A stretch of DNA of 64,000 nt, from NCBI RefSeq assembly GCF_014839805.1, contig NC_051130.1:7316001-7380000 (forward strand). The letters are read 5' to 3'. Below, piece after piece: positions 10,372 through 53,702 of this stretch (position 1 is its first letter; each line of letters starts with the position of its first letter). Both the position numbers and the translations under genes were made by a program. The stretch is from Manduca sexta (Eukaryota; Arthropoda; Insecta; Lepidoptera; Sphingidae). A model generated the notes under the pieces. It made no database searches. It was not told the origin of the DNA and saw nothing but the letters and a program-made list of their open reading frames with translations.

Positions 10372-12169
10372 CTAATCGGTAGAGTTGATGAAGGCGAGGA
10401 AGTCCTCCTTGTAAATGCCCTCAGGGTCTTCCTTTTTAGCGAGCCGCTCCCAAAGGTCAGGCAACTTGGTCTGGAAGCCCTTCACTACCGTCCTTATGAG
10501 GTGTCGCTGCTTCGGCGTGCATTTTCTGCATCTGGTTCTCAGCGCATCGGGGATATTCTCTGCAAGTAATAATTAGCATTAGGCTATTTTATCGAATCTT
10601 ATAAAAATTTAAAATCTTTAAGAGAGTATAGTATAGAACTTCGAATTAAATGTAAAAATATAAGTAACCACGTTAAATACGATGTAAGTGCTGTAAGAAA
10701 CTTCAGAAAAGAGAATTCAATCAAGATTTGTCATTCAATCAAATGTACAAGGATCCATAAAGCCATTTTGCATTTCTCTATATAAAAGAGTATAGGAAAT
10801 TAATTATGCGTATGATACAAGTGCTCCAAGGATCTATAATCCCAAAAAGTAATGCAATGACTGCCTTAGTGATGGGGTAATATTATGATGCGACTGCGGT
10901 ATTGAGGTCTCGAGTTCGACCCGCTGGTCGGACAAAGTGATATTGAGCTTTTCTCCTTAGTACCACATCATGGGACGGAAAATAGGTGCACTAGTATCGT
11001 CTCTGCCTACCCCTTAGGGAATAAAAGTCGTGTATGTATGTATGTCTGTAGGATTTAAACATTATGTTATTATTACTTTTGAATTCTCTTCCTTCAACCG
11101 TGCACGGTCCCTCGTCGAGGAAGCATTTTCCGTAGTTTTTCAGTAGGCGAACGTTGCTGACCAGCTCGTTAGCATCGAAGTTGTCATACTGCGTACTGTA
11201 GTATTCTTCACACGCGACCGCTGCCACGAGCGCAAAAAGTACCAAAATTGTCTTCATGTTGCTTTCTGAAAATATTTAAATATTTATGTTGTTTAATAAT
11301 AATTTTAAATTTGTCAACATTCAGCCAGTCTGAACTCTCAAGGTAATAACTAAAGTAGGAGCCAGTAGAGTTGCCACAACACAAGTACCAAAGTAACTTG
11401 AAATTTTACTGTTAATGTCAATAGATAGACTGGAGGAAAAGTGTAGATCAAACAACTTTTTACGCTATTTCGCCCGCTTTCGACTTTTGCAGCATGTTCC
11501 TTATATATAATATCGTTAGGTATAAGGAAACCGATATCAATAGACAGTAGCGTTTCAATTAAGTAAATACCGCTGAATGAAGCTAAATAAGTGACCCAGC
11601 AATTTATATCTGAGATATTAATCAATATTCTTTGAAATGAAAATAAGACAGACTTTAATCTTGTATTTTTAAATAATATTCAAGTTATATGAATCTACAA
11701 TCTATTAAGCACTGTGTTGTACGCATTCTTATTTAACATAATAATTTACTAAGTAAGAGTGTGACCAACACTTTCTTGTTTCTATTTAATAACATTAAAA
11801 CCAGCTAAAAACGTAGGGAAAATCTGTTGAACTGCTAATATATGTATATTTACATTTTTCAACAATTATAATGAATTTAACCAAATCTAAACGTAATTAC
11901 TAAGTATATGTTTTAACTCATGTATTTAGACTGTATTGTATTTTCATGATTTAAGTCTATACGAGTATTTGAAAGCAAATAAGAGGCTAAATACAATAAC
12001 ATTGTTTCCTTGTTAGTCTAACAATTCCAGAAAATTATAGGATATTTTATTTTATGACCAAATCTATGTAGTAGTAATGTTTTCCTTATTTAAATAAATA
12101 TAACTAAAATTATGTTAGAAAATATAACTTACATAAGAAGTATCCTGCACTATTGTTCTGTCAGAACTG
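10372..12169 (-). CDS. Chemosensory protein (CSP/OS-D family), complete
   Basis: A complete three-exon gene for a secreted chemosensory protein that carries small hydrophobic molecules. Non-coding exon 1 (about 12133-12169) has a donor GTAAGTTA. Exon 2 (11077-11265) holds the start at 11257, after acceptor TTTTCAG. Exon 3 is 10372-10559. Joined, it encodes 122 residues: signal peptide MKTILVLFALVAAVAC, the family motif YYSTQYDNFD, and four cysteines spaced C-x6-C-x18-C-x2-C, exactly the CSP signature. The coding intron falls after EFK in phase 1, the family's conserved position. The C-terminal part has the expected QTKLPDLWERL helix. The coding intron contains a SINE at 10859. Promoter: TATAAAAGA at 12191-12199 with an ACAGTT initiator near 12169. 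Family call is very firm; ligand and tissue are unknown. Confidence 0.9.
10859..11040 (+). mobile_element. tRNA-derived SINE, family A, inside the CSP intron
   Basis: Starts with GACTGCCTTAGTGATGGGGT, has a B-box-like GAGTTCGACCC, then the family body (GGACAAAGTGATATTGAGC, CACATCATGGGACGGAA) and a GTAT-repeat tail. It lies antisense in the CSP coding intron. Confidence 0.65.
11276..12132. other. 5' intron of the CSP gene
   Basis: Lies between non-coding exon 1 and the start-codon exon. The open frame at 11350-11625 (minus) inside it has no supporting signal. Nothing else recognised. Confidence 0.45.
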
Positions 12170-20755: not shown

Positions 20756-21385
20756 TATTCTTTTGACAATATTTTCTCAGAGTATTGCACAACTATAGAA
20801 TAATTATACCTACCTTCAGCACCTAAGATTTTTTTAATAATTAGCATTACTTTAAAGATATATTTTTCTAATAAAATTATTTTAGATATCGACATTTCTT
20901 TATTAATAATTCCTTCACTCACATTAAATAACCATAGATCAAATTTTAAGCACGATTAAAAATTAAAATAAAGGTATTCGTAATTAATTTTGAGACCATA
21001 TAACAAACTTTGTTTTTATTAATTACGGTCTATCAATCAAGAATAATTTTAACGGTCTTTTAGCCTTAACTATTTCACAATATTTTACTTGTTTGCAAAT
21101 AGCTATTACAAGTTATTATAAAAAAATATAACCTATAGATGTATAACTAAACCTGTAACACCGATTTGCTAGAACAATTTCCATTTTATAGTTCAGACAA
21201 CAAAGACCAATACATATAGTTTTATAAAGACTTATGAGCAAACCATCACAAACATAAAATGTGTAGTAAACATCACTTAACAATAAAGCAAATAAATACA
21301 CACAATACAACCGGCTTGCATTTTACATGGCTTCAATGCAGTTACGTAACTGCGCAGGTCATATAATACATTCGCTTGGAACTGG
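20756..21385. other. Intergenic between convergent genes
   Basis: Contains the 3' end of the membrane-protein gene. Its right half (from about 21080) is duplicated at 22550-22865. Confidence 0.5.
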
Positions 21386-22157
21386 TTATTGAGATAGACT
21401 CTTAAAGCCGTCTGCGACTTTATCGATCACGCTTTTCTCCGTTGGTTTGAACACGTGTACGACAGCGTCTCCTGCGTCGCTCATAGTTTTGACCACATCG
21501 TTCCAGGCGCTTTTTATCGAGTCAAAAATGTCGCGTTTCTCTCGAATACCTTCTGACGGGAACGCCGACACGAATGTGATGATGAGCTGAAATGTTTTCA
21601 GTCCGATATATATTGTAGACTTTTAAATTTCAAATAAATATCTAGCAATATGTACTTAATTTTGATGTGAGAATATTAGAGAAAATACTGGCTGATGAAA
21701 TTTTATCGGCATCGAAATGAAAAATATGTTTTTTTTAAATAATCTACTTATATGAACTACATTGAATATCGGATCTTTAAACAAAGTTTATTTTGATTAT
21801 TCAATAATGCACGTACTCTATAAATAGCGTTATACAGCCGATAGTGATAAAAACTAGTGCAACCAAGCGATTGACACAATATCTGGCATTGTTTTTTTAG
21901 TATACTGATACAGGCATCAAGACAAAAGTACAAGTATCGATATTCAAAAAAAAATAAAACGAGAAAAGATTTTATAAAAATCAAAATAAACTACCATGCT
22001 TAAAATCGAAAGCGCAGAACAGTAGTACTTGTGATTAATAGTAATGACCCGACCATGACATCTATGAATGGATATGGAGTACCTACAAGCAACAGCACAG
22101 GAGAGCGAAATATAAAAATCCACTTACAATGCACAAGAATATCAGCTTAAAATCCAT
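21386..22157 (-). CDS. Secreted helical peptide precursor 1 (three-gene family)
   Basis: Exon 1 is 22128-22157 (10 codons, MDFKLIFLCI) and exon 2 is 21386-21586. Donor GTAAGTGG and acceptor ATTTCAG join in phase 0 inside the signal peptide. The 76-residue product has a signal peptide ending FVSA, a short propeptide (FPSEGIREKR) ending in a dibasic site, and a predicted amphipathic mature helix starting DIFDSIKSAWNDVVK and containing AGDAVVHVF, then a KPTEKSVIDKV tail. Secreted action is likely. Hydrophobic spacing and the AGxAVxxV core match the cecropin helix pattern, but charge is near neutral, so an antimicrobial role is only a hypothesis. The neighbour at 22866 is a paralogue with conserved promoter and introns; 28632 is a more distant one. 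No family recognised by name. Confidence 0.8.
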
Positions 22158-22330
22158 GTCGACACAGATTAAATTTGTTTGCAATTACTGCAACAATAGA
22201 TGTTATCGGTACAAAGTTCTGCCTCCTACTGGAACACAAAGGAGTAGCAGGAAGATTTGAACTCGGTTTAGCCACGCATTCGAGTCAGTAATCATGCGAG
22301 GAGACGAAATTACAGGCGACAATAGATGGA
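22158..22330 (-). promoter_or_regulatory. Conserved promoter region of helical peptide gene 1
   Basis: Closely matches the region upstream of gene 2 (24256-24420): shared CTATTGTTGCAGTAATTGC initiator block, CTCCTTTGTGTTCC, and TAAACCGAGTTCAAATCTTCC with few changes. Copy 1 has a GATA motif (CCGATAAC) at a 4-base difference. Conservation may reflect recent duplication or shared control. Confidence 0.5.
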
Positions 22331-22865
22331 TGACGCACAAGGGCTGTGTGTCCGATGGCCAAACATCGTTCCAAACAATAGATTGTATTTTATGTTCATT
22401 TTAATGATTTTATTGTGGAAAAAAAATTGACCTATTTTATTAAAGTTGTTAGTACTATATACTACTACTATTACTATATAAGAATTTTGTCTGAAAAGCA
22501 GCACAAAAAATTGTTTTTATTATATATATTTTTGTCAGTACTAAATATTACACAATATTTTACTTATTTTACAAATAGCTGTTGCTAGTGAGGCTAGCAA
22601 CATAAACAATTACGTATAAACTTTACTACTAACTTATGTTGCAACACCGATTTCCTAGAGCAATTCCCATTTAATGGTTATTACATACGAAGGTAAAACA
22701 AAGGGCACTATTACGTTTGTTATTATACTTATTTATATACAGACTATTGATAATCCATCAGAAACATATTAAATATATATCACTTTACAATAAAGCCAAT
22801 AAGTATAAACACATACAAGCGGATTGCATTCTACACGGCTAATGCTTATACATAACTGTGCAGAT

Positions 22866-24255
22866 TTAATACATTCCTTCGGCAACATATATTTTCGACA
22901 GACTGTTGGTGCTCTCTGCGACGTTCTCCATCACGCCTCTTTCCGTTGTTGTTGGTTTAAATACATAAAGGACAGCGTGTTCTGCGGCCCCTAAGCTTTG
23001 AACCACTTCGTGGATAACGCTTCTCTGTGTTGTGGGTCTGAATACATTCGCGACAGCGTGTCCTGCTTTGCTCAAAGTTTTGACAACTTCGTGCCAAGCG
23101 TGTTTTATTGAGTCAAAAATGTCGCGTTTCTTCCGGTCACCTGATGGGTACGCTGACACGAATGTAACTATGAGCTGAAAATTTTTGACTCCAGTATAAA
23201 AATAAATAATCCATATTTTTTTTATTTGTCATAGCAATAACTACAACCAATAAGTGCACTGCAATCCAAACATTTCGTCTAGATATCAAACTTTGATTGT
23301 TACATTGTATTGTGTGTGCACATGTGTTTTTTACAATGTTGTTAAGTATTTACGACCAAATAAGTTTTAGTAAATTTGCAGCATGACAAAAATGTTGTTC
23401 TCAAGAAATAGTACCAAATGCCTTTATAAATTTTATGGAATCCAGATTTGTAAACTTCTACAGCCTAGGGTTAAAATTATCATGAAGTGGAATAAATGAA
23501 TAAAAATTAGAGATTCAACAAAATTTTTATACTTAACCTTCAATAAAAAAATATAAAAGATTAGTTTAAGTAGCGTTTAGTGTATTTGTCACAAAACTTA
23601 TTCTAGAACTAAAGAACCATGATGATAATGACGTGGTCAATCAATCATAAGATATTAATTATCTTGCGGTGCGTGATGACAATAATTAAATTCGATGTCA
23701 TGTTAATGACTTCAGTTCTTAACGAACTTGTATTTGACGCAAAAGTAACTAGTAAGTAGTAATTGGCAGATGTCAATCAAAACTGAGAAATGTATAAAAC
23801 TGTTTAGTAATAGTTTCCCTTTAAAGTCAACTTGTGTGTTGCCTATACACATTCGATGAATCCATCTGTTTCGATAAACACACGTTACCAAGGTTTGCAT
23901 CTTTTCTTATCTTAATTATAAATGCCATAGTTTGTGAAAATATTTAGATGTTTGAATGTTTGTTAGAAGAAAGAGCAGATACAACTGAACTGATTTAAAT
24001 GAAAAGAAGAGGATTTGAAAATGATTAACCCGAAAAGCCTTGCGGGCTAGCGAAACCGCGAGCAAAACCTAATTTTTGTATAATTTAAAATACATTACCT
24101 TAAATGGAAAGAGCAGTACGGTATCACTTGTGATTAATTGTATTGGCCCAACCATGACACCAATAAGTGAAAATGGAGAACAAACGACAGCACACTTAAA
24201 TAGAGAATAATAAACATCCGCTTACAGTGCACAAGAAAATCAGCTTAAAGTCCAT
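22866..24255 (-). CDS. Secreted helical peptide precursor 2, with internal duplication
   Basis: Exon 1 is 24226-24255 (MDFKLIFLCT) and exon 2 is 22866-23174, phase 0, donor GTAAGCGG and acceptor TTTTCAG. The 112-residue product repeats the plan of its neighbour: signal peptide ending FVSA, propeptide YPSGDRKKR with a dibasic/tribasic site, and a helix starting DIFDSIKHAWHEVVK with AGHAVANVF. It is longer because the module is partly duplicated: the segment with AGHAVANVFRPTTQRSV is followed by one with AEHAVLYVFKPTTTERGV. His and Lys make this copy more basic. The 1-kb intron holds a Helitron remnant. Function unknown; the family comparison with cecropin spacing applies here too and is inference only. 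Confidence 0.8.
23933..24073 (+). mobile_element. Helitron remnant in the intron of peptide gene 2
   Basis: Head-like TGAAAATATTTAGATGTTTG and tail-like GCGGGCTAGCGAAACCGCG then AGCAAAACCTAATTT. Short and diverged. Confidence 0.5.
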
Positions 24256-24455
24256 GTCGACACAGATCGAATTTGTTTGCAATTACTGCAACAATAGATG
24301 TCGGTACAAAATTCTGTCTTATACAGGAATACAAAGGAGTGGCAGGAAGATTTGGACTCGGTTTAACCACCCATTTGAGTCTGTATTTATGCGAGAAGAC
24401 GAATTTTCTGGCGACTATTGAAGGATGATGTACGAGGTCCACCTGTCCAATAGCC

Positions 24456-24987
24456 AAACATTATTCCAAACAATAAGTTACTTTAATACTTACATTTATT
24501 CTCAAATACTTAATACTAAGCAAGAAGGAATTAGCGTTAATGCTCTGTTTTGCGTGAAAAGCAATATCCAAAATTGTTTTTATTATAGTTCACATCTCTA
24601 CGTACTTGTTATTACCAGTCGCAAATATGCATGACAAACGATCCATAAAGTTTATGATTTAAGAATTCCATCCAATTTTTTTGGTATTTCGTTTAGTAAA
24701 CATAGAGCCAGTGTCTTGCAATCCATATTTTTTTATTTAGGTTGGTTAATAATGAAAATTGTTCCTTAATACTGATGTCTACTGACTTTAATAGCGAAAG
24801 GTATCTTATCTTCCAGGATCTTTCCACTAGGCCTAGAACAGCACCATCGGAATAGATTGGACTAACATCAAGCAAACTTGGTATGACTGAGAACCTCAAT
24901 AGAATCGGTTTAGGTTACGGCACAGACAACCTGTATGGAATTTATTATTATTGTGCAGACTTGATATTGGGTCACTTGCATCTTCTA
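24456..24987. other. Intergenic, nothing recognised
   Basis: No supported gene. Short opposed open frames only. Confidence 0.4.
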
Positions 24988-24989
24988 TA

Positions 24990-26236
24990 AGGTCAGTCGG
25001 GGGAAGTGCACCATAAAATTTTCATAGCTGGATTCAATGCTAAATAATTTCTTTTTGTGCTGACTTAAGAATGTAATTTTATTAATTTAAGAATATTTGG
25101 TATTTTGTGATAACAAAAAAATGGTAGTAGGCGCACTTGCCTCCGGAAATGGGGTAAGAGCGCCTATGTAAAAAAAACGCCAATATGAAACATTATAAAG
25201 AAAACACTCACTTTAGTCCATAGAGAAACAAGTTTTACTCGCATTGCTCTTGGATAATTTTTAATCACTCAATATTATAACAAACTATGGCTGTCAAATC
25301 AAATTCGGGGTAAGTGCGCCATATATATGTAAATCAGGGCTTGAAAACATTTTAGATTTCTTTTTTATATATAATTTTTTGCTATGTTAGAGTTTTGTGT
25401 GCGGATATGTTGGAATAAAAAAATGGTAGCCCTAATATAAAATCCATTTAATTTTTAATAACTAAAAAAAACATACAAAAATGTAGGAATTAACAATTTT
25501 GAATGCGTTATAACTCAATTACTTAGAATTTGGCCTTATGACATTTGATATGTTTTAGCTGCATTATATCCAGATAACGTGCCTGATCGAACAGTTGCAA
25601 CCTATTCACGTAAAGTCGCTCTAGACCAAGGTATTTCAATTTTTCTTTTGTAAAAACGAATTAACTAATACGCCCTTTTATTTAAGTCGGCTCAAAACAA
25701 AATACCTTGACTACAAAAAATTCTGCTGTATATAAGTATAACATTTTAATAATAATAAATCATATTAGTAAAACTTATTCTCAAAAAAGGTTGGTTATAT
25801 ATGGATCAGGGGCAAGTGCGCCATACGACTATTAACTGTGGCGCACTTGCCCTACTCGTCAATTTTTAGGTACATTTTTCGCATTGCTAAAAAATCCTTT
25901 ATTTTAGTATATATAAATAAAATACAGGCAGGAAGTTAAAATAAAAGGTTTAAACTATGTATTCACTTTACTGGTTTACAGAAATATGTTAAAAATCTTG
26001 AAATATTTGATGTTATCTTTTACGGGGTCATCTCGGTTTACAGGTCTAAATGACACTTAAAATAAAATGGCGAATAAATCGTATTAAAATGAACATAGCC
26101 ATTTATGTTTTTAGTGGAACTGTATTTCAGTTAGTAGCATAGATGTAAGATTGCGGTAATTGTATAACATCAATAGTTTTCGATTTTTTTAGGGCAGGTG
26201 CACTTACCCCGTCGGCGCACTTGCCCCACCTGACCT
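24990..26236. mobile_element. TIR DNA transposon with eight internal/terminal motif copies
   Basis: Terminal inverted repeats AGGTCAGTCGGGGGAAGTGC (left, 24990) and the complement of GCACTTGCCCCACCTGACCT (right, ending 26236), flanked by TA on both sides (a possible TA target duplication, as in Tc1/mariner elements). The 14-bp motif GGGGCAAGTGCGCC or its complement occurs eight times: 24999, 25130, 25151, 25307, 25809, 25840, 26197 and 26214. No transposase frame is visible. One 72-nt exon-like segment (25559-25630) lies inside. Confidence 0.7.
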
Positions 26237-26345
26237 TAATTATAATTGTTTTAACCTACAGTGAAAATAGTCTGCTTAAAACTTAATTTGTGTAATATGC
26301 AGCTCTATCGTGTTATTCTATAGTTATTAAGCTACTAATTTTGGT

Positions 26346-26700
26346 TCTGACTGCCTTAGTGGCGTAGTTATATTTGTACACGATACCAGTACGACTATTG
26401 CGCTGAGATCCTGGGTTTAATCCCGGGTCAGATCAAAATTGTGGCAGGGTTTTTCCAATAAAATTACTCAGTCGCAGCTCGGAGTCAGGAATTTAGCGCT
26501 GTGATATCCCCGTGCCTCGGAAAACACGTAAAGCTGTTGGTTCTGCGTATGATCTCCCTCCGGTCATGTCAGATTGCCATCTCACCGGACTATGTGAGTG
26601 AAGGAACAAAGAGTGCAGCTGTATTATTGCGCACACACTTGTTCACTACAATATCTCTTGCGTACTTGGCTGCTTCTCGTCGAGATAGGACACCGTAGCA
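26346..26700 (+). mobile_element. tRNA-derived SINE, family C
   Basis: tRNA-like head (GACTGCCTTAGTGGCGTAGT) and degenerate B box (GGGTTTAATCCCGGG) as in family A, but a different body (CCCGTGCCTCGGAAAACACG, TAAAGCTGTTGGTTCTGCG) and tail. The open frame at 26501-26698 lies in this body and is not a gene. Confidence 0.65.
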
Positions 26701-27369
26701 GAAATTCGGTTAGGAAGAAATCAATCGTTAATCAATAATAAATATATTGACAAAGTAATGTTTTGAAATTTACATGCATTTCACGCAGGTATATCGATGC
26801 ATGGGTCTAATAAATTTTCAGCAAATACGGATGCACGCACGGCATTTACGTTAAACGAAATAAATTCTTATCAACCGAAATGTCTGTTAACATTTAGCCT
26901 ACATTGATGTTTTTATTGTTCATAATAATGTATCATACAATATAAGTAAGTACTTAACTTTAAAATATTTTTTTGCAAAAAATCAAAAACCGTGAGTCGG
27001 TGACTAATTGAAATGAAATTCCATACTTTATGGCTGACTCAGAGGTGTAATGTATGAATTAAGAAAGGATGAAGGCACAGGCCTTACAGCAAACGTTTCC
27101 AGGTAAAAAGGTTTTCCAGTGCGCCTGCGCAACTTAACTAGTACAAATCGTTTATATTGCCATTTTAACTGATATTTAAATAGATAATTACATAACATTA
27201 AAACGTGTAGATTTCAATCCGTATAAGGGCTTCACCTAATATGCAAATAAATTTTCAAATCTAGAGCACACGCAACATTTCAATACAGTTTTAATTATGT
27301 TACATATTCATTTTAAATATCCATGTTATTTCAAAATTGTTTAATGTTATTTAATGCCTCCTTTAGGCC
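26701..27369. other. Intergenic, nothing recognised
   Basis: A+T-rich, no supported feature. Confidence 0.4.
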
Positions 27370-27525
27370 GATTTCAATAAACGATCCCAATATCAATCTT
27401 GAATCCAATTCCTAGAATGAACCAATCAGAAACACTCACTTGTAAGCATGTCGAAAAAACTTTGTTCTGATTGGCCCATTCTTGAGATAGATCAAATATA
27501 GCGATCGGGATTCTTTATTGAAAAT
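27370..27525. mobile_element. MITE with about 60-bp terminal inverted repeats
   Basis: Left ATTTCAATAAACGATCCC and right (complement) ATTTTCAATAAAGAATCCC begin arms that stay similar through the CCAATCAGAA block, so the element is almost all inverted repeat. Confidence 0.65.
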
Positions 27526-28631
27526 GACGTTTAGACTATTGCCGAATAATTCTTGCATTATGAGAAACTAATACTCGGATAAGCTGTTTACACACCATAT
27601 TCGTGTCTATTCTTCTGTACCCGGCAAGTATCTTAAAATCAGGGATAAAATAATATTTTTTTACACGTTGGTCACCCGAGCAATCGCTCGAATTGGGTAA
27701 TCGGCGTACACCGGAGGTGACAGGCGACTCGAAATCAACAATATAAATAGCAATACGATTCTGGGAACCGATTTGTTTTGTTACACTTGACAAAATGTAT
27801 ACGGTAAATACGATCAATGGTCACGATCGTATTGTTATGTCATTATTTAGAACGAATTGATTGCGCAAATTGACAAACTCAGCTTTAAAAGAAATTTTCA
27901 TTGTATATTTAAATATGCAAATTAAGCAGCGGAACCTACCAAGAACGCACACTGTTTTAATTAATGGGAATTGTAATTGGTGATAATTATTGAGTTATAA
28001 AGCATATTCAACATCTGGTGTGAAATGACAGCGCAGCTATAATACAACGTGTGTCGACTATTAAAACAAATAAATATAATGCGCTTATGTAAAGAAGCAA
28101 ATCTACTCATTTTTAACGCAGCTTCGTACCCATATTTATTATAATCTTCTCTCAATATAAATTATATGCATGATAGACCTCTTCCAACCGGAGCGCAGAA
28201 ATTACCTGGGGGTCATATCAATAAATAAATACGTGTTATACCTCTGTGTTCGTCACCGAGTTAATGTAAGTGTTTCATAAAGATTTTTTTTACTCTTTAT
28301 AAAGGGCTTTTGTCAATTTGTTCTAATTTTAATGTCGGGAAACTATTCTTGAATTGTAAGTTACAACGGATATTAAAATTTTAGCATGTTGGTGTTTAAT
28401 ACACGATACATCTTCAAGCTAATATTAAATGGCGACTCTTACCTGTAATGCCCCAGGAATAAAAATAAAAAATAGTTTAATGTCAATAATGCCAATTTAA
28501 ATTATTATTGTTAATAAAAGTACACTAAATAAAACAAACATAAAATAGTCATAATTATAATTAGGAACCACTTAATATATACACAAATTGAACCTACAAT
28601 CCATTCTATAAAATATAACTTATAAATATTT
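27526..28631. other. 1.1-kb stretch without a recognised gene
   Basis: The 93-codon frame at 27536-27817 (minus) has no signal, domain or splice support. Confidence 0.4.
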
Positions 28632-29699
28632 TCAATATCCCATATTTCTTTGTATCCATCGTCCCGTCTTATTGAAAAATGATTTTATACTCGATCCGGC
28701 ACTTTCCGCTGAACTCACAACTTTGTTTCCGAAATCTTTAATCGAATCCACCAAACTTTGCCATGTTTGTCTTTTGGAACGTACTTCGGCAGAATCAACA
28801 GGAACCACGGCATCAAGGGTAATTACCTGAAAAATATTTACATGATATATATTTCTTAATAATTATAATATCAGCCCTGTATTATATACTATCCTACTGC
28901 TGGGCACGGGCATCGTCTACTACTGAGAGGGATTAGGCCTTAGTCCACCACGCTAGCCTGGTGCGGGTTGGTAGACTTCACACACCCTCAAAATTCCTAT
29001 AGAGAACTTCTCAGATATGCAGGTTTCCTCACGATGTTTCCCTTCACCTTTAAAGAAGGTGACAATTCACAAAAATTCACACATCATTTTAGAAAAAACA
29101 GAGCCCTTGGGTTTTAAGCCTGCAGAGATTCGTCTCGGCAGTCCGTTCCACACCCAACTAGGCTATCGCAGCTTCAATACAATTTCTCAATGCTACCTTA
29201 ATTACAAATACGGCTGTTATTGTGTTTTAACAATAATTTTAAACACTGTAGTATAAAGTTTAGTAAATTAAAATAGTAATGTAAATAACTTAATAAACGT
29301 AAATTAATGTATATGAAAAGATTAAATTTTATTTCCAATTAATGTATATTGGAAATAATTTTACACGCATAGTTCCGACCCACACAAAGTGTATTGGGTA
29401 TTGGAAACTTCCCATTATACATTTTCTTTCTCTGTACAGGTACTGAATCTGCGATCACAAGTTAGGCTTAGTACCCACTACTCAGTAAGCATGCTGTACG
29501 AGTAAACAACCTCTATAGCAATAAAGTACTGTACAGAAGACGTGTTTAACGCGGTATTGGACACCACGAATACATTTTTAGAGCGAGAAACTGACTACTT
29601 GCGAATCAAACCCGAATCATCATTATTTAATTTAACTATTAGTGTATATGTTTAAATTAAAATTACCACAATCAATACAATAACGGCTTTCTGTATCAT
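28632..29699 (-). CDS. Secreted helical peptide precursor 3 (diverged family member)
   Basis: Exon 1 is 29667-29699 (11 codons, MIQKAVIVLIV; donor GTAATT) and exon 2 is 28632-28826 (acceptor TTTTTCAG), phase 0, giving 75 residues. It has the same plan as the genes at 21386 and 22866: hydrophobic signal peptide spanning the splice, short propeptide (VPVDSAEVRSKR) ending in a dibasic site, then a helix starting QTWQSLVDSIKDFGNKVV and an SAGSSIKSFF block that lines up with AGDAVVHVF. The tail (GRWIQRNMGY) differs and is basic. Shared intron phase and position, strand and layout support common descent; sequence identity is modest. The intron holds a SINE (28893). Function unknown. Confidence 0.7.
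28893..29175 (-). mobile_element. tRNA-derived SINE, family B, in the peptide-3 intron
   Basis: On the minus strand: TAGCCTAGTTGGGTGTGGAA head, body AACATCGTGAGGAAACCTGC, TGTGTGAAGTCTACCAACCC, CACCAGGCTAGCGTGGTGG, ending at the CCCAGCAG end typical of the family. Confidence 0.75.
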
Positions 29700-38945: not shown

Positions 38946-39905
38946 ATGACTAGGATTAAGGTAAATAATAATTCATAATGATATTTTTACGCGACTTCTA
39001 AAAGGATATTAAAAACTTAACGCTTAATAAAACCTTATTGTACCGTCAATAATATTATAAAAAATAGTACCTATCTAGTGAGAAACGATGTATGTGTTTA
39101 AGAGTTTTAATAATTCTACCGCATTTAACCTATGGAAACAACAACGACGTAAATATTCAACAGTACCCTTTGAATATTATTATTGGACCGTAAAAAAATT
39201 AACTTTATTGACATTCTATTGTAATCTAAATAAATTACACTTTCAAAATAGACAATACGTGAAGAAAAACGTTACACCCCTTTTTAAGCATATTGCACGT
39301 GCGGAGAAATATGAGATTGTCATAGTTAAAGATCATCATATGTAGAAAAATAAAACATAAGTTATATCATATGCATTACAAATACGACTAATAGTAAAAA
39401 TAATTGTTATAGTTCTAAAAAATTACATTCCCAAAACGTGTAAAACTAACTAAACTAGATAATTTTGATGGAAAAATAAAACTTCTTCCAGGTTTGGTTT
39501 GCGTTAGGTATCGTCACCGCTCTTATATCTACAACATTATCACAAGGCCGAGGCGGGTTTGGGCGACCAGGTGGCTTCGGAGGCCCGGGTGGATTTGGCG
39601 GTGGACCAGGACGCCCAGGTGGCTTTGGAAGCCCACGCGGCTTTGGAGGTCCAGGCGGCTTTGGAGGCCCGGGCGGCTTTGGCGGTCACGGTGGCTTTGG
39701 TAGACCGGGTGGCTTTGGCGGTGGACCCGGAGGGTTTGGCGGTGGACCAGGTGGCTTTGTCGGTAGACCGGGTGGCTTTGGCGGTGGACCGAGTGGCTTT
39801 GGCAGTGGACCTGGTGGTTTTGGCGGCGGACCTGGTGGCTTTGGCGGTGGACCAGGTGGCTTCGGTGGCGGCCCAGGCGGCTTTGGTGGATTTGGACGCA
39901 GATAG
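38946..39905 (+). CDS. Glycine-rich secreted protein (cuticle-type), complete
   Basis: Exon 1 is 38946-38960 (MTRIK; donor GTAAAT) and exon 2 is 39492-39905 (acceptor CTTCCAG), phase 0, 142 residues. The signal peptide spans the splice and ends LISTTLSQ. The mature part is almost wholly Gly, Phe and Pro in units such as GGFGGGP and GGFGGP, with Arg-Pro breaks (GRPGGFG) and a final GFGRR. All three frames of this 21-nt-type repeat are open, so other frames look like ORFs; only this one joins to a signal peptide and carries the GGFGG pattern. Such proteins occur in insect cuticle (CPG group), silk glue and some glycine-rich defence peptides; cuticle is the most likely, by composition and mini-exon structure. 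AATAAA at about 39976. Tandem paralogue of 34891. Confidence 0.8.
39552..39902 (+). repeat. Coding minisatellite (Gly/Phe/Pro units)
   Basis: Imperfect tandem units of 12-24 nt built on GGTGGCTTTGGCGGTGGACC. Unit number is likely to vary between individuals. Confidence 0.7.
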
Positions 39906-40757: not shown

Positions 40758-41020
40758 TATATTACAGAACGAGGTTTAACTAAAAACTTTGGTTTAAACC
40801 TATACAAAGTACGGTTTATATAAAAATGGTATTACAAAAAGTGGTTTAACGATAAACCATGGACTATTTGATGGTCTAATGCTAAACCTCGGCGCCCCTG
40901 GTTTGATGATGGTCTAAATCGTAAATGTCAAATCAAATTTCAAATCATTTGTCAGATTGTGTCAGATTATCTCTTAAATTAGCGTCTGTTTCGTTGTCTT
41001 GTGTTATTTTTTACACGAAA

Positions 41021-42487
41021 ATGGATATTAACATGGTAGATTCAGTCGATATTGAGGACATTGAAGCCGTTGAGCTACTGGAAACGCCACGCCGACCAAA
41101 TAGAAATCGTGTTCGAGTCAATCCCTTCATTGATTTATCTGATGAAGATTTCAGGCAAAAGTATAGATTTACTAAATCTTTTGCAATGAAAATAGTAGAT
41201 TTATTAAAGGACCCATTAACTCGAGACACCCGTGGATGCCCGGTGTCTCCCGAAATCCAAGTGGTTTGCGCATTGCGAAGCTGGGCTCGACATGAGGTAA
41301 GTCATGAACAAAGCTTATATTTGCATTTAACAACACACTCATAATCATTTATAAAAATTATACCCAAGTTCCAAATCAATATTTTGTAATTTTTTTAATA
41401 TAGATCCAAGATGATACAGCCGATTTGCATGGAGTCTCACAGCCCTTTATAAGTAAAATATGCAAAAAATTAGCAGGAGCCATAGCCGGAATATCGCATA
41501 GATTTATAAAAATGCCTGCTACATTGGCAGAACAAGAGGAAGCAATGCGAAAATTCCATAGAATTGCAAATTTTCCTTCAGTAATTGGTGCAATTGACTG
41601 TACTCACATAAGGGTAAAAAAATTATGTGAAGATGGTGGTCAAATATATATCAATCGCAAAGGATTTCCATCTATTAATGTCCAGGTATTCTGATTTTAT
41701 ATTCATATTTTTCTTCTAAAATAAACAATAACTTGTATGCAGACCAATCCCTAAAGTACATTTGACTTTACAACCTTATACTAGGGATAGAATGTCTTTG
41801 TTTAGTGTGACTATTATACAATAAATAATAAAAATTCTAGGTCAGATAGTTATTATTTACGGTTTGCAGGGATACAGTGGAAAACTATAATTTAAATGTG
41901 ACTATGCTCTATAATATGAAATGATAATATGTATAGTCAATTCATATGTACGTGTTAGATACTAAAATAATCAACTATTGTTCCAGGTAGTCTGCGATGC
42001 AAATTTAAAAATAATAGATATTGTTGCTAGGTGGCATGGCAGTGTCCATGACTCTCGAATTTTTAGAGAAAGTCGACTAAAGCAGAGATTTGAGGCTGGT
42101 GCCTTTTCAGGCATTTTGCTTGGAGACAGTGGGTATGCATGTACACCGTATTTGTTTACTCTCTTACTGAATACCTCAACACCACAAGAAGAACGGTACA
42201 ATAGTGCTCAAATTAACACCAGAAATGCAGTGGAGAGATGTTTTGGGTTGTGGAAGCAGAGGTTCCGTTGTTTATTAAGAGGCCTTTACTGTGACATTGA
42301 AACTGCAAGAAAAACTATTGTAGCATGTGCTGTATTGCACAATATCGCAATTGATATGAAGGAAGATGTGTTTTCTAGTGGTCTCGAAGACGAAGTTAAC
42401 AGGCAATCTCACGCAGTTGTTTTGGCCGCAGAAAACAATGTTCGCGGAAATATTAGAAGAAGGCAATTTATTGAAAGACACTTTTAA
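41021..42487 (+). CDS. Harbinger (HARBI1-like) DDE transposase, apparently intact
   Basis: Catalyses cut-and-paste movement of PIF/Harbinger elements. Three exons: 41021-41296, 41404-41685 and 41987-42487, both introns phase 0 with consensus sites, total 352 residues, the usual family length. An N-terminal helix-turn-helix includes DLHGVSQPFISKICKKL. The catalytic domain shows the first Asp in VIGAIDCTHI, HGSVHDSRIF, the second Asp in LLGDSGYACTPY, and the Glu in NAVERCFGLWKQRF, with 35 residues between the last two. No stop or frameshift is seen. The frame is open upstream of the ATG to 40925, but ATG 41021 matches the family start. The required MYB-like partner in this element is broken, so mobility would need a partner from elsewhere. 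Domestication is possible but nothing here shows it. Confidence 0.9.
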
Positions 42488-45850: not shown

Positions 45851-47913
45851 TTTTTTTTTTTTTTTTTTTTTTTGTTTTCGCGGAGAAAGTGTCTTATGAC
45901 TACCGCTCAGCCTTCGTGGGGGGCGACTGAACGGTTATGTTGGGGTCACCGTGCCTTACGACCCGGCATTGCGCCGCCTGGATTTGATGTCGACCTTCAG
46001 GCGACCGCCGGGCCGAGTCCCTAACCTATGTACAACGCACGGCATACCAACTAAAACTCCGCGGTGGCCCTCTTCGGCGCATTAGGGACGACTGCGAGCT
46101 TCCTCTGACGGAAATGTCTAAGTCTGCTTCCACAGCCGCCCCTGCGCGGTGCCGCCTAGTGCGGCCCGTCTCCTGTGGGGTAGGGGCTCAGGAGCCCCAA
46201 CGCACCGAAGGACGCCCTCGGCGTCTACGGCAGCATGAGGCCAACTGCACACTGCCGTCCATCCCGGGGTCAACCGAAAGATGTGCAAAAATGCACAAAA
46301 ATGTACTAGGGCGGACAGCCCCCTGCTGCCCGCCGACGACCCCCATCGTGGCCCCTATTAGTCGCCTTTTACGACAGGCAGGGGATACCGTGGTGAAATT
46401 CTCCAAACGCCCCCAATCCACAGGGCGGGAGACGCCGGTCAGTCGTCCACCCGGCGCCTCCTACGTCTCCTCTGACGACGGGAGGGATCCTCTCTCTCCC
46501 GATCCCTCTCGGCACTCTCCTTCTGCGAGAGGACCACCTCGCAGAAGTGGGCCACCGCACGCCAGGCCTCCCGGCTGCCGACCATGGAAGCGATCACAGC
46601 CGGCAGCGAGAGGTCTCCTCCGACGACTGAAACGAGAGCGCTGCGCTCCTCCTCCCAGGCTGGGCAAGACTCCAACGTGTGTTGGGCCGTATCGCGCGGG
46701 CAGTTGTCACAATGGTGACACACGGCAGACTCCTCTACCCCTACTATCTGACACAGATACTCACCGAAGCAGCCATGCCCGGTGAGTACCTGCGTCAGGC
46801 GAAATGTTGCCACGCCGTGGCGCCTGTCCAGCCACTCAGCAAAGACAGGACGCACTGCCGCGACAGTCCGGAGCCCCGCTGACGGGGCCTCCAGCCTGAG
46901 ACGCCACTCCTCCACGGCGGCTTGCCGTAGAGAGGCCTTCATGGCCTCCACCTCCTTCGGGGCCAGACTCTGCCCGCGATTTAACGCCCCTCCCTCCAAT
47001 GGAAAGTGTCGGAGAGAGTTTTGGCGTCCAGATCCCAGGGCAGGAATCCGGCCAAAAGACAAGCCGCCTCGTACGAAACCGTGCGGTACGCCCTTACGGC
47101 CCGCTGCGCCACTACTCGCTGTGGGCCCCGCAGGAGAGCGACAGAACGCTTCCTCAGAGCGTCAGCCCAGATCGGGCTACCGTATAGTGCCATGGACCGC
47201 ACGACCCCGTGGTACAACCTTCGGCAAGGGATACCAGGACCTTCCAGGTTGGGCAGCAGGCTAGAAAGAGCGCCCGCTGCCCTGGACAACTTTGTCCGCA
47301 ACTTCGTGAAATGGATGCGGAATTCCCACCGGCTATCTAAGATTAAACCTAAATACTTCATATTATTTCCGATGGGAATCCGCACCCCCTCTACCACGAT
47401 GTGGGCACCGGTTGGTGGTCCTCTCCGAGGCCCGTGGAAACAAATGGCCTCGGTCTTTTCGAGGGCCACCTTCAATCCTAGACGACGTATACGATTCACA
47501 ACGTGACCGGTACCCACCGCCGCCAGAATCGCAGCGTCCTGGAAAGTCCTGGACGTCGCCGTGACCAGCGTGTCATCTGCGTAACACGTCACACCGACGC
47601 CCCAGAGATTGGCACCACGGAGCACCCAGTCGTACCCGATGTTCCACAAGAGGGGGCCAAGAACCGACCCCTGTGGAACACCGCACGACATCGCTCTTCG
47701 GTGCCACCCGTCAGCGCCCGGATACACCACGTCCCTGTCAGAAAGGTACGCGTGCACCAGACGCCGAAGATAGGGCGGCACCACGTGATACCGCAGTGCT
47801 TCATTGATGCAGGGCCAGGGTAGCGAATTGAAGGCATTCGAGATGTCTAAAGAGACTGCAATCACTACCTCTCCTCTGGCCACTGCATCTTCCGCCTGTG
47901 ACTTGACCCGCAG
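45851..47913 (-). mobile_element. R1-clade non-LTR retrotransposon, 5'-truncated
   Basis: A GC-rich 2.06-kb insertion in A+T-rich DNA, bounded by a perfect 16-bp duplication. On the minus strand it ends in an A tail (T run at about 45851-45873) and keeps the reverse transcriptase from before the catalytic Asp to the C-terminal zinc knuckle, followed by a roughly 590-bp 3' UTR. The endonuclease and ORF1 are missing, the normal outcome of incomplete reverse transcription. Confidence 0.9.
46439..47913 (-). pseudogene. R1-type reverse transcriptase, truncated and frameshifted
   Basis: Reverse transcriptase of the LINE above. The frame is open from the truncation point (47913) and shows AVSLDISNAFNSLPW with the first catalytic Asp, the GVPQGSVLGPLLWNI motif, the CYADDTLV active site and the MKYLGLILDS thumb motif. 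It stops at 46981. The C-terminal part continues in another frame from about 47000 to 46439 (KEVEAMKASLRQAAVEEWRL) and holds the zinc knuckle CHHCDNCPRDTAQHTLESC of R1-clade elements, then an Arg run. A one-base change in the G-rich run near 46990-47000 explains the switch. No complete enzyme can be made from this copy. Clade call rests on the zinc knuckle and motif wording; TRAS, SART or Waldo subgroups are not distinguished. Confidence 0.85.
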
Positions 47914-47929
47914 ACAAGTATCTATACTT
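47914..47929 (+). repeat. Target-site duplication of the LINE, right copy
   Basis: ACAAGTATCTATACTT, identical to 45835-45850. Confidence 0.9.
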
Positions 47930-48346
47930 ATTAGAATAAACCATTACAAGAAGATTTAACTTGGTTCTATTTATTACCTGGTTCCTGCGTTAGTTTTTAT
48001 GTTTCAAGTAACCTTTTATGACTACCGAAATTAAATCCTATGCTTATAATAATACACAAATACATACAGATACAGGCACTCTCGGCTTTTATCTCCGAAA
48101 AGATACTTTTTTTTAGTTTTAGTTTTTGAAGCAACGATAGTTAGACTAATCGAGATAAAAACCGTTCATCTTGTTTTTTTATAATCAAAAGATTTATTTA
48201 ATATAAATTTTGTAACGCCACACGTAACAAAGGACTACATTTATTATATAGGAACAACTTTGAGAAACGATGATAGGCAGTTTTTCTATGAACTGGAAAT
48301 TTAAAGTAATTTCCAACTTTTTACTGGGGTTAATATACGCCCATAC
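47930..48346. other. Upstream region of the glycine-rich gene at 48408
   Basis: Contains a diverged SINE-A tail at about 48057-48112 (minus). Otherwise nothing. Confidence 0.4.
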
Positions 48347-48407: not shown

Positions 48408-49005
48408 ATGGGCTCATTCAAAGTAAGTTGTTTTGTTAGACCAATTGTTTTACTATAAAATTGGATATAATAATTATTAATGAAACATTTTTATTGGAAA
48501 TCCAGTAATTATCATAGTTAAAGATAACTAATTCACATAAATTGCTTGAGATATTTACCAATTCAACGGCATTTCTATTAAATCTCTACAAAATCTTTCT
48601 AAGATATCCCCACTGCTCAGCATTCAGATCATTGTAATTTGTGCTACTCAATGAAGGAAAGACCCACAGCCCACAGTAATCCATTAATCATAAAAGTCGT
48701 GACAATATACAAATGAATTCCTTATTCTCCAGGTTATTTTGCTCATAGCAGCAATTGCCGTGTTGCTATCAATAGTCGCTGCTCAGTTCGGTGGTCGTTC
48801 TAACGGCTTCGGAGGAGGTTTCGGGGGACGACCAGGTTACGGTGGCGGCTTCGGCGGTCGCCCAGGCTTCGCAGGTGGTTTTGGAGGTCGACCAGGTTAC
48901 GGAGGTGGTTTTAGAGGTCAACCAGGTTACGGAGGTGGTTTCGGCGGCCGACCAGGTTACGAAGGTGGTTTCGGCCAAAGAGGTTTCGGCCCAGGTTTTG
49001 GATAA
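48408..49005 (+). CDS. Glycine-rich secreted protein (GGFGGRPGY repeats)
   Basis: Exon 1 is 48408-48422 (MGSFK; donor GTAAGT) and exon 2 is 48733-49005 (acceptor TCTCCAG), phase 0, 95 residues. The signal peptide spans the splice and ends SIVAAQ. The mature protein is about six imperfect units of GGFGGRPGYG, with Tyr at the unit end and single changes (GFA, FRGQ, YEG), closing on GFGPGFG. The Gly/Tyr/Arg-Pro units point to a cuticular or other extracellular structural protein; insect glycine-rich antimicrobial peptides are a weaker alternative. TATA at 48347 and AATAAA at 49048 frame the gene. It shares structure and signal-peptide wording with 49651-50246, its likely tandem duplicate. Confidence 0.85.
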
Positions 49006-51642: not shown

Positions 51643-52702
51643 ATGGGAATCTTCAAGGTATTTGTTGTGGTTATTTAACTTTATTATTGTTTCACTATGG
51701 AATCGTTTGGGTAATATACGACTTTCAGAAAGAACATAATATCCGGCTACCGCACATTTTATTAGATTAGCTTTTTTCTTTATTAATTCTAAAATATTTA
51801 TAATTAATTTCCAGTATTTTAATAACGTGATTAATTTTGTGACTAAAAGTTTTTCCTGAAAAGGCTTGATTTGTTTTGACAATGCGTTTTGTGGGTCTGA
51901 AATACTTCTGATAAGCGACTACACTATCTAAAATAAGTTGTGTAAATTTAGCATTAAATTATAAACTATTTAAACCTTTTATCGAAAAGAAATAATATGT
52001 TGTTGGATATTATATAAAAAATGTTTCATTATGTTTTTGTTTGCTAATTTAAAATTTGTGATATATAATATGCCTCAAAACAAAATTATTGAAAATTAAA
52101 GATGTAAGTACTTACTCAATAACAATATGACACAGAAAGCAAAGGTAAAAAATAAAACAAGCTTTAAAGTATTTTCTAACACTTCTATACTTCAATATAT
52201 GTATAAATTACTATGATAACAATATTGTTTTCAGTTCACACTTATAGTATCTGCACTGACCTTGTTAGTCCCTGATGTAAGCGCCTATTATCGCGGCGGC
52301 TACGGAGGCTACTATAACGGTTTTAACGTCTTGGGAAATGGAAGTCCAAGTTTTGGAGGTGGATATAGACAACTTGGCCACAATGGCATCGCTTATGAAG
52401 CAGCATCGGGTCTCAGTGGAATCGGTCATGGCGGCCATACTCTGAGCGGTTTGAATACCAATTTAAACAACATCAATCGAGGCATTGAAGGTACATATTA
52501 TAGACAAAATAACCTCGCTCATGGGGCAGCTCCAGGCCTCAGTGGTTTTGGCCAAAATCATTACGGCCTTAGTGGATTCGGCCCAGGCGGCCATAGTCTG
52601 AGCGGTTTTCGACAAAGAAAGCACAGACTAAGCGGTTTTGGCCCGGGACCTTTTGAACAAAACGATTTTAGGCAGTACTATAGAAATGGTTACCGCCGTT
52701 AA
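51643..52702 (+). CDS. Secreted Gly/Tyr/His-rich protein with LSGFG repeats
   Basis: Exon 1 is 51643-51657 (MGIFK; donor GTATTT) and exon 2 is 52235-52702 (acceptor TTTTCAG), phase 0, 160 residues. The signal peptide continues FTLIVSALTLLVPDVSA and is followed by a Tyr/Gly start (YYRGGYGGYYNGFN). The body carries repeats on a G-L-S-G-F-G core: GLSGIGHGGHTLSG, GLSGFGQNHYGLSGFG, HSLSGFRQRKHRLSGFG. The end is basic and Tyr-rich (RQYYRNGYRR). Composition suggests a cuticle, chorion or silk-associated structural protein; regular His could bind metal or buffer charge. ATTAAA follows at about 52728. Convergent with the gene ending at 52802, only 99 bp away. Family not recognised. Confidence 0.75.
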
Positions 52703-52801: not shown

Positions 52802-53702
52802 CTAAGCAAATGGCGTGCGCGGATTATTAAATACCTGAGTCATGAAGTGCAGGAAAGCGCTGCCGAGTTGTATAGCTAGTTTCGATCCATTTCTTAGGCC
52901 ATCTCGTTGCAAAAACCCCGAGAACAAAGAGGGAGGCGGCGTCTCCTTAACCTCTTGAACTGGTGGTACAATAACTGGAACCGATTTCTCAACACTATTC
53001 AAGTAATTATTGATTGATGGTACACGGGATATGTCTGTATTAAGATTATTTGGAATAGGTGTAGGAACTAATACTATAGGTGGAGCTTGAATTGGAATAG
53101 GAGGAACTGGCGTTATAAGTACGGGGGGCGCTTCTGTCGGAACGACAATTACTTCTTTGTGCACTATTGGTGCTGGCTCTTCTACTGGTACGATTGGAGT
53201 TTCGGATACTATATTTTCAACCACTGGTGCCGCGGAGGGCGTAACAAGAGGTATTTCTTGTTCGACTTTTTCATGTATGATTTCTTCATCATGATGCTCT
53301 ACTACTGGTGCTACTGGAAGAATTGCTGGTCGAGGAACTTCAGGCACAACGTAGGCAGGTACTGGCACTGGTGTGACAATCACTTCTGGCTCTTTTATAT
53401 TTATATCTTCCCTCTTGGCAATTTCGTGTTTCATTCCAAAACTACCGAACGGTGTCCATTTCTCTTTTATAAATGCTATAGGTTTAATTGGAAATGGTAT
53501 GAGTGAGATATCAATGCCTTTCTTGATACTTAATCCTTGGAATATCGTCACTGAGTTCACTTCTCCGAGTAGAATGGTGGTCAGTAACACAGATATCTGT
53601 TAACAAAATCAAAAGAACGACAATTAAGTACGCTTAATTTTCCTTAACATTTTGTTTAGTTAATATTTAATTATGTTTTAATACCTGAACCAGTTTCGTC
53701 AT
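52802..53702 (-). CDS. Secreted Pro/Val-rich protein, unknown family
   Basis: Exon 1 is 53685-53702 (MTKLVQ; donor GTATTA) and exon 2 is 52802-53596 (acceptor GTTAACAG), phase 0, 270 residues. The signal peptide spans the splice (ISVLLTTILLGEVNS). A short globular-looking start (IKKGIDISLIPFPIKPIAF, KEKWTPFGSFGMK) leads into about 130 residues of Pro/Val/Ile/Glu low-complexity sequence (VIVTPVPVPAYVVPEVP, PPVLITPVPPIPIQAPP) with acidic breaks (EHHDEEIIHEKVEQE). The C-terminal part (SLFSGFLQRDGLRNGSKL) looks ordered and amphipathic. Such Pro/Val tracts occur in extensible cuticle and extracellular-matrix proteins, but no domain is recognised. TATTTAAA at 53751-53758 (minus) is the likely TATA box. 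Confidence 0.8.

Follow-up and report, generated by a model that had tools for sequence, protein, structure and literature searches.

The 64,000-nucleotide window analysed here comes from Manduca sexta (NCBI RefSeq assembly GCF_014839805.1, contig NC_051130.1, positions 7,316,001 to 7,380,000 of the forward strand). Between positions 21,386 and 29,699 it carries three small genes on the minus strand, here called m1, m2 and m3, for predicted secreted helical peptides. An earlier note had described them as sharing a first exon of 10-11 codons, a phase-0 intron within the signal peptide and a propeptide ending in Lys-Arg, and had compared the mature helices with cecropins. The gene structures are borne out: the exons are recovered where the note had placed them, the Lys-Arg forms part of R-x-K-R in all three genes, and the intron does lie inside the signal peptide, unlike that of cecropins. 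All splice sites combine a GT donor with a TTTCAG acceptor in phase 0 on the minus strand. The precursors are 76 (m1), 112 (m2) and 75 (m3) residues long, and each has an annotation-level match among public gene models: LOC115446271 is identical to m1 over 76 residues, and O3G_MSEX008708 (P0054) and O3G_MSEX008678 reproduce m2 and m3, respectively, letter for letter. Our main finding is that m1 and m2 are very probably members of a family of secreted prepropeptides, lepidopteran and so far unnamed, a statement that takes family identity and processing signals jointly. The features of the three genes are as follows.

22128..22157, minus strand: m1 exon 1, 10 codons (MDFKLIFLCI), first part of the signal peptide; matches LOC115446271
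21587..22127, minus strand: m1 intron, phase 0, 541 bp, GTAAGTGG...TTTCAG; from the sequence
21386..21586, minus strand: m1 exon 2, remainder of the signal peptide, propeptide ending REKR, 48-residue mature peptide (net charge -2), stop
21015..21020, minus strand: m1 candidate polyadenylation signal AATAAA, 366 nt past the stop; motif only
21970..22380, minus strand: m1 upstream region, exon 1 and start of the intron, 79% identical to m2 24074-24475
24226..24255, minus strand: m2 exon 1, 10 codons (MDFKLIFLCT); matches P0054
23175..24225, minus strand: m2 intron, phase 0, 1051 bp; from the sequence
22866..23174, minus strand: m2 exon 2, propeptide ending RKKR, 85-residue mature peptide with an internal repeat
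22516..22521, minus strand: m2 candidate polyadenylation signal AATAAA, 345 nt past the stop; motif only
29667..29699, minus strand: m3 exon 1, 11 codons (MIQKAVIVLIV); matches O3G_MSEX008678
28827..29666, minus strand: m3 intron, phase 0, 840 bp; from the sequence
28632..28826, minus strand: m3 exon 2, propeptide ending RSKR, 45-residue mature peptide (net charge +3), diverged

In m2, an ATTAAA (again only a motif) lies closer to the stop than AATAAA, at 191 nt.

The family was collected with a profile search in which scoring was limited to the 7,979 candidates with the most words in common, and 79 matching proteins were returned; 32 of them, rows of the query alignment that include the three Manduca proteins, match by construction. 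A source name is attached to 49 of the proteins, and 48 of these are from Lepidoptera, ranging over Plutella, Cydia, Chilo, Plodia, butterflies, Heliothis and Bombyx. The remaining one (P0004) is a 333-nt contig labelled Klebsiella pneumoniae whose protein contains the Bombyx mandarina member letter for letter; it is probably contamination of a bacterial assembly, and it appears to be spliced, because both halves of the signal peptide are joined within 333 nt. Family records include LOC115446271 (Manduca, m1), LOC114243203 (Bombyx mandarina) and LOC125489953 (Plutella), and the mature peptide of m1 is identical to that of Plutella at 34 of 48 positions and to that of Bombyx mandarina at 37. 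None of the 79 proteins has a precomputed Pfam domain or a source name that states a function, and the four proteins compared with NCBIfam gave no match over the cut-off. No paper was found by family accessions and motifs, in a search that excluded supplements and most subscription journals. In viral contigs, 87 stretches match a pattern, and none was confirmed as a viral capture.

The anatomy of the precursor is shared across the family. A [KR]R site followed by D/Q, or by S and then D/Q, is present in 71 of the 79 proteins; seven of the other eight are fragments that start beyond the site, and the last, P0076, reads KH. Arg stands at position -4 (R-x-[KR]-R) in 66 of the 71 site-bearing proteins, a motif by which the propeptide cleavage site would be of the furin type. 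The mature peptide is exactly 48 residues long in 53 of the 71, and all 53 are net negative (-2 in 35, -3 in 8, -1 in 5 and -4 in 5). Thus the low charge that the earlier note had seen is a conserved property, although m3, at +3, departs from it. The family signature is KPTE(K)S, with KPTE in 74 of the 79 proteins. Conservation and profile work used 61 of the 79; left out were P0004, P0040, P0050, P0051, P0053, P0054, P0063, P0075, P0076, P0077 and P0079, together with the seven fragments lacking the [KR]R site. In all 61 aligned mature peptides P30, T31 and E32 are invariant, as is D1, the latter partly by construction since the site search required D or Q. Trp is found at mature position 10 in 53 of the 61. 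Both m1 and m2 show the split signal peptide, R-x-K/R-R and a helix of about 48 residues with K/R-P-T, the mature peptide of m2 being 85 residues long.

The split signal peptide itself looks conserved in the family, short of proof, because some frames that extend upstream of the exon 2 start read F-Q (P0023, P0029 and P0051) or L-Q (P0027) there, as fits a phase-0 acceptor. P0028, P0033 and P0063, which are annotated models with other upstream sequence, do not show this sign. In Plutella, the propeptide can carry extra KR-D units before the final site: two in P0020, one in P0022 and none in P0028.

A 411-bp block around exon 1 is shared by m1 and m2 at 79% identity. Judged from the sequence, the two genes are a tandem duplication and this block is its footprint. 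A search of the 470-Mb assembly with m1, in which the top candidates of a first pass were scored, recovered only m1 and m2. Over the shared codons, the rates of nonsynonymous (dN) and synonymous (dS) change are 0.15 and 0.67 (NG86) or 0.16 and 0.50 (YN00); with dN so far below dS, the protein is mostly conserved. The m2 peptide is altered in several ways. It has RPTT/KPTT in place of KPTE, it lacks two core Asp residues, and it contains an internal repeat, HEVV..HAV..VF[RK]PTT, whose copies are 27 codons apart and identical at 48 of 69 nt. A repeated PTEKS module is also present in two relatives, P0025 and P0053.

Slow copies that stand next to faster ones are seen in several lineages. In a tree of 43 chosen rows of the 79 (79 columns, with two rows cut to 80 residues), m1 and m2 are sisters (99/97) with branch lengths of 0 and 0.7; in Brenthis, Euphydryas and Arctia, too, one copy is slow and others from the same lineage are faster. 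The second copies of Loxostege, Ostrinia and Chilo cluster together (85/94), which indicates an older duplication. In Brenthis, Euphydryas, Leptidea, Ostrinia, Chilo and Parnassius apollo the two copies of a pair come from contigs of equal length and so probably from a single contig in each case, which is not so for Arctia. By eye, the Parnassius duplicates P0073, P0075 and P0079 have turned Ala/Lys-rich and are reminiscent of late embryogenesis abundant (LEA) or type I antifreeze helices.

The mature amphipathic helix proposed in the note stands up against composition shuffles in all three Manduca peptides: the amphipathicity is reached by 1 of 300 shuffles for m1 and by none of 300 for either the first 48 residues of m2 or m3. 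Across the family, 69 of 71 members have a hydrophobic moment that no more than 3.4% of shuffles match. AlphaFold2 predicts m1 as a single helix over residues 24-75 with moderate confidence (mean predicted local distance difference test score, pLDDT, of 72). Its model of m3 is of low confidence (pLDDT 60; predicted template modelling score, pTM, 0.31) and shows two helices following the signal peptide.

The place of m3 is less clear than that of m1 and m2, so the three-gene family of the note holds for two members and is suggestive only for the third. The VV, AG and F spacing that the note had seen in m3 is there, but its W does not align with the W of m1 and m2. This peptide lacks KPTE, carries a net charge of +3 and ends a tree branch of about 4.85. 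Its HHalign match to the family, at 36%, is reached by 0 of 200 plain shuffles and by 3 of 300 class-preserving shuffles, which keep the pattern of apolar and polar residues. A whole-genome search with m3, again scoring the top candidates of a first pass, recovered m3 alone. In the Papilio machaon gene model P0063, a signal-like stretch and an m3-like piece are run together with the family gene just downstream, in the same order as in Manduca. That piece, SIKNAYNKTEDWV, matches m3, SIKSFFNKTGRWI, at 41% in HHalign, with 1 of 300 shuffles as good. The matching gene anatomy of m3 is weak evidence, because a signal peptide in two pieces may occur in other secreted frames of the window as well. 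Taken together, m3 is probably an ancient neighbour and possibly a relative of the m1/m2 family.

The comparison with cecropins starts from the pattern F-x2-I-x6-V-x6-A-G-x-A-V-x2-V, which is literally present in m1 and m2; the register noted earlier is also the best ungapped register for both. Whether the pattern exceeds helix periodicity was judged with four query peptides and five cecropins, without correction for multiple tests. Class-preserving shuffles score as well in 10-23% of cases for m1, 10-48% for the family consensus and 8.5-19% for m3, which is too often, and in 0.2-2.5% for m2, which does better. Searching by profile did not support kinship. With PF00272, there was no match at E-values up to 10 among the three members and 10 relatives. 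Against Manduca cecropins, HHalign gives 1.07% for the family, 1.05% for m1, 0.44% for m3 and 12.1% for m2 (entered as ‘m2n’, its first 40 mature residues), as against 94.9% for a Drosophila and 86.3% for an Anopheles cecropin run as positive controls on the same profile. Against a second set of cecropins, the family reaches 0.70%, a score that 15 of 200 column shuffles also attain. Searches of the PDB had best E-values of 0.06 (m1 alone) and 0.32 (profile), with no antimicrobial peptide in either.

The F of F-x2-I occurs in one of the 61 relatives, m1 itself, and also in m2, which is outside the 61. F or W at mature position 3 is likewise found in one of the 61 (m1 and m2 carry F, and m3 carries W). 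The A-G-P (or A-x-P) hinge is absent: at position 22, which follows A-G/S, 57 of the 61 have D and the other 4 have E, and m2 has H. Over the first 30 residues, the net charge is -2 in m1, +1 in m2 and 0 in m3, compared with +6 in papiliocin. The nine Manduca cecropin matches lie at G000:C18:6.68-6.73 Mb, whereas the window is on C16. All nine begin at profile position 7, with an exon 2 that starts E-x-x-G; in the seven for which exon 1 was found, the intron follows F-K-[KE]-[IL], inside the mature peptide. For Anopheles gambiae, PMC11554196 likewise puts the cecropin intron inside the mature peptide. Within the Manduca cluster (L004-L012), L010 has an in-exon stop codon.

Kinship with cecropins, including the cecropin D type, was thus rejected on the Pfam, PDB and HHalign results (with both the second set and the Manduca cecropins) and on the class-preserving register test. 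There are likenesses: both are short secreted amphipathic helices in tandem clusters, with a mid-peptide spacing like A-G-x-A-V-x2-V. The family differs in being anionic, in lacking the hinge, in having Trp at position 10 rather than near the N-terminus, and in combining a furin-type site with an intron in the signal peptide. That m1-m3 are diverged cecropins is the most improbable of the explanations considered. The figures for m2, which agree between HHalign and the shuffle test on one register, speak for such an origin, but the fast copy is then more cecropin-like than the slow parent and the consensus, the opposite of what descent predicts, and intron position, hinge, N-terminal residues, charge and genomic location all differ. 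The cecropin-like spacing is most likely helix periodicity, the caveat that the note itself had entered and the better reading of the two. The resemblance of m2 may be taken as chance or secondary convergence; perhaps m2 is drifting towards cecropin likeness through its loss of Asp.

Two further peptide groups were compared. Moricins (PF06451) end in D-V-x-x-F-[FL]-[KR]-P-K, and they resemble the family in being secreted, lepidopteran and provided with a C-terminal [FL]-[KR]-P. HHalign gives 2.6%, with 2 of 200 column shuffles as good, and aligns AVVHVFKPTEK with DVFNFLKPKKR. A mosquito cecropin, however, scores higher against moricins (5.4%); since that protein is unrelated, the 2.6% match is background, and kinship through the [FL]-K-P end was rejected on this ground. 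Moricins are, moreover, strongly cationic, as opposed to the uniformly negative 48-residue peptides of the family, from which m3 departs with +3. PF06451 has no match among the three members and 10 relatives, and the Manduca moricin matches (10 pieces) are on C19, not C16, with the profile match split in two pieces, apparently within the mature region. That the family consists of distant moricin relatives is therefore very improbable. Galleria anionic peptide 2 shares with the family the character of an anionic moth peptide; its sequence gives 0.28% in HHalign, and kinship was rejected.

As to function, we prefer the reading in which the family peptide is an extracellular ligand or cofactor that binds a partner, with a probability of roughly 0.4. 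The signal peptide would be removed, and in the secretory pathway a furin-like protease would cleave behind R-x-K/R-R, so that an anionic amphipathic helix of 48 residues would be set free outside the cell. Less surely, this helix might dock through its apolar side and the near-invariant S-D-A-G-D ... K-P-T-E-K-S on one specific conserved partner (a receptor, for instance, or a carrier protein), and would then act as a ligand or cofactor and not as a membrane-lysing antibiotic. Tandem duplicates, m2 among them, would diverge while the parent copy m1 changes slowly. A fixed molecular partner is argued from the steady length and charge and the KPTE core, and the conserved polar residues (by residue type, the mean entropy over the 61 sequences is 0.85 bits for polar and 0.92 for apolar positions) lean towards a specific binding partner over a lytic antimicrobial.

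Several points weigh against this. Counted by helical face, the polar side is the less conserved (0.96 bits versus 0.80 for the apolar side), as it would also be in a helix that binds membranes or lipids. Between m1 and m2, the mature part has changed more (dN/dS 0.18/0.66) than the signal peptide (0.05/0.61). Both results lean against the mechanism. Defence genes, too, typically have fast-evolving tandem duplicates. The slow copy is not found in every lineage, both Leptidea copies being fast (0.62 and 0.49), and 15 of the 40 inner branches of the tree are open, with 13 well supported. The family profile is shallow (Neff 2.1), matches outside Lepidoptera may be missed by a word-based search, and the AlphaFold2 model of m1 has a pTM of only 0.37, with pLDDT of 61-72 over the five models. 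A secreted amphipathic helix with a less conserved polar face and duplicated genes is compatible with defence or lipid binding.

A tentative competitor, which we take seriously, is a host-defence family of anionic or mixed-charge helices distinct from cecropins. Such peptides would be released by furin and act on microbial membranes or in synergy with cationic haemolymph peptides, and the duplicates would diverge under microbial pressure. Secretion, amphipathicity above that of shuffles, duplication in several lineages and the weaker conservation of the polar face are all in keeping with this, as are the lost Asp residues and the more positive first 30 residues of m2. Anionic antimicrobial peptides are described from Galleria and Bombyx in PMC10059942, which we count on the same side; the lack of a match to Galleria anionic peptide 2 counts on the other, as does a slow parent copy with an invariant polar KPTE. 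The upstream sequences add little. The strict kB consensus does not occur in the 1 kb preceding each of m1-m3, nor in seven Manduca cecropin upstreams; because these positive controls lack it too, it decides nothing. A loose kB pattern has 1, 0 and 0 sites in m1-m3 versus 0-6 (17 in total) in the seven cecropin upstreams, a weak point against defence.

It is unlikely, though less so than kinship with moricins or cecropins, that the family consists of small amphipathic proteins that bind lipids or surfaces, in the manner of apolipoproteins or as a coating of interfaces; haemolymph, egg, cuticle and secretions are examples of where they might act. The single long amphipathic helix from AlphaFold2 would suit this role, glycine-rich secreted frames occur within the same window, and some of the Parnassius duplicates are Ala/Lys-rich. 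Sub-threshold Pfam matches of m3 to ApoC-I (E-value 0.067) and of m1 to HSP9/12 (E-value 0.098) point the same way, but they are far below the cut-offs and chance-like, and lipid binding alone does not explain the invariant P-T-E.

Returning to the partner-binding ligand, its widest form is doubtful: a Lepidoptera-wide extracellular ligand system, not yet named, in which a furin-released, 48-residue anionic helix is held constant by one receptor or binding protein, while the gene repeatedly spawns fast-diverging tandem copies with new roles. As part of this, the new roles would perhaps be more cationic and defence-like, with m2 as one such copy. Conservation from Plutella to butterflies and hawkmoths, together with the steady length and charge and the KPTEKS core, makes the family a good candidate for an overlooked order-specific extracellular signal or defence factor. 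Lepidoptera hold many model and pest insects. Several lineages pair a slowly changing parent with fast duplicates, which gives a ready-made contrast between constraint and release.

Around the three genes, small secreted proteins seem to be clustered in the window. The frames at 39480-39902 (+), 48703-49002 (+), 52220-52699 (+) and 52805-53599 (-) are glycine-rich or Pro/Val-rich, and all four (39480, 48703 and 52220 on the plus strand and 53599 on the minus strand) have an in-frame CAG directly before a hydrophobic stretch. They may therefore have split signal peptides too, perhaps a local habit; a simple scan for mini-exons (4-14 codons before GT[AG]AG) found none that was convincing. By eye, the frame at 10994-11275 (-) looks like the first exon of a chemosensory protein of the OS-D type. 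A GC-rich stretch at 45988-47943 (60% in 46001-48000) contains a minus-strand frame resembling reverse transcriptase (YADDT), by eye that of an element without long terminal repeats (non-LTR). An Rfam match to mir-3389 at 47626-47692 (+), with 75.1 bits against a cut-off of 75, falls inside this stretch, and thus the microRNA assignment may derive from the element. At 40925-42484 (+), pieces of a PIF/Harbinger-type transposase frame can be recognized by eye.

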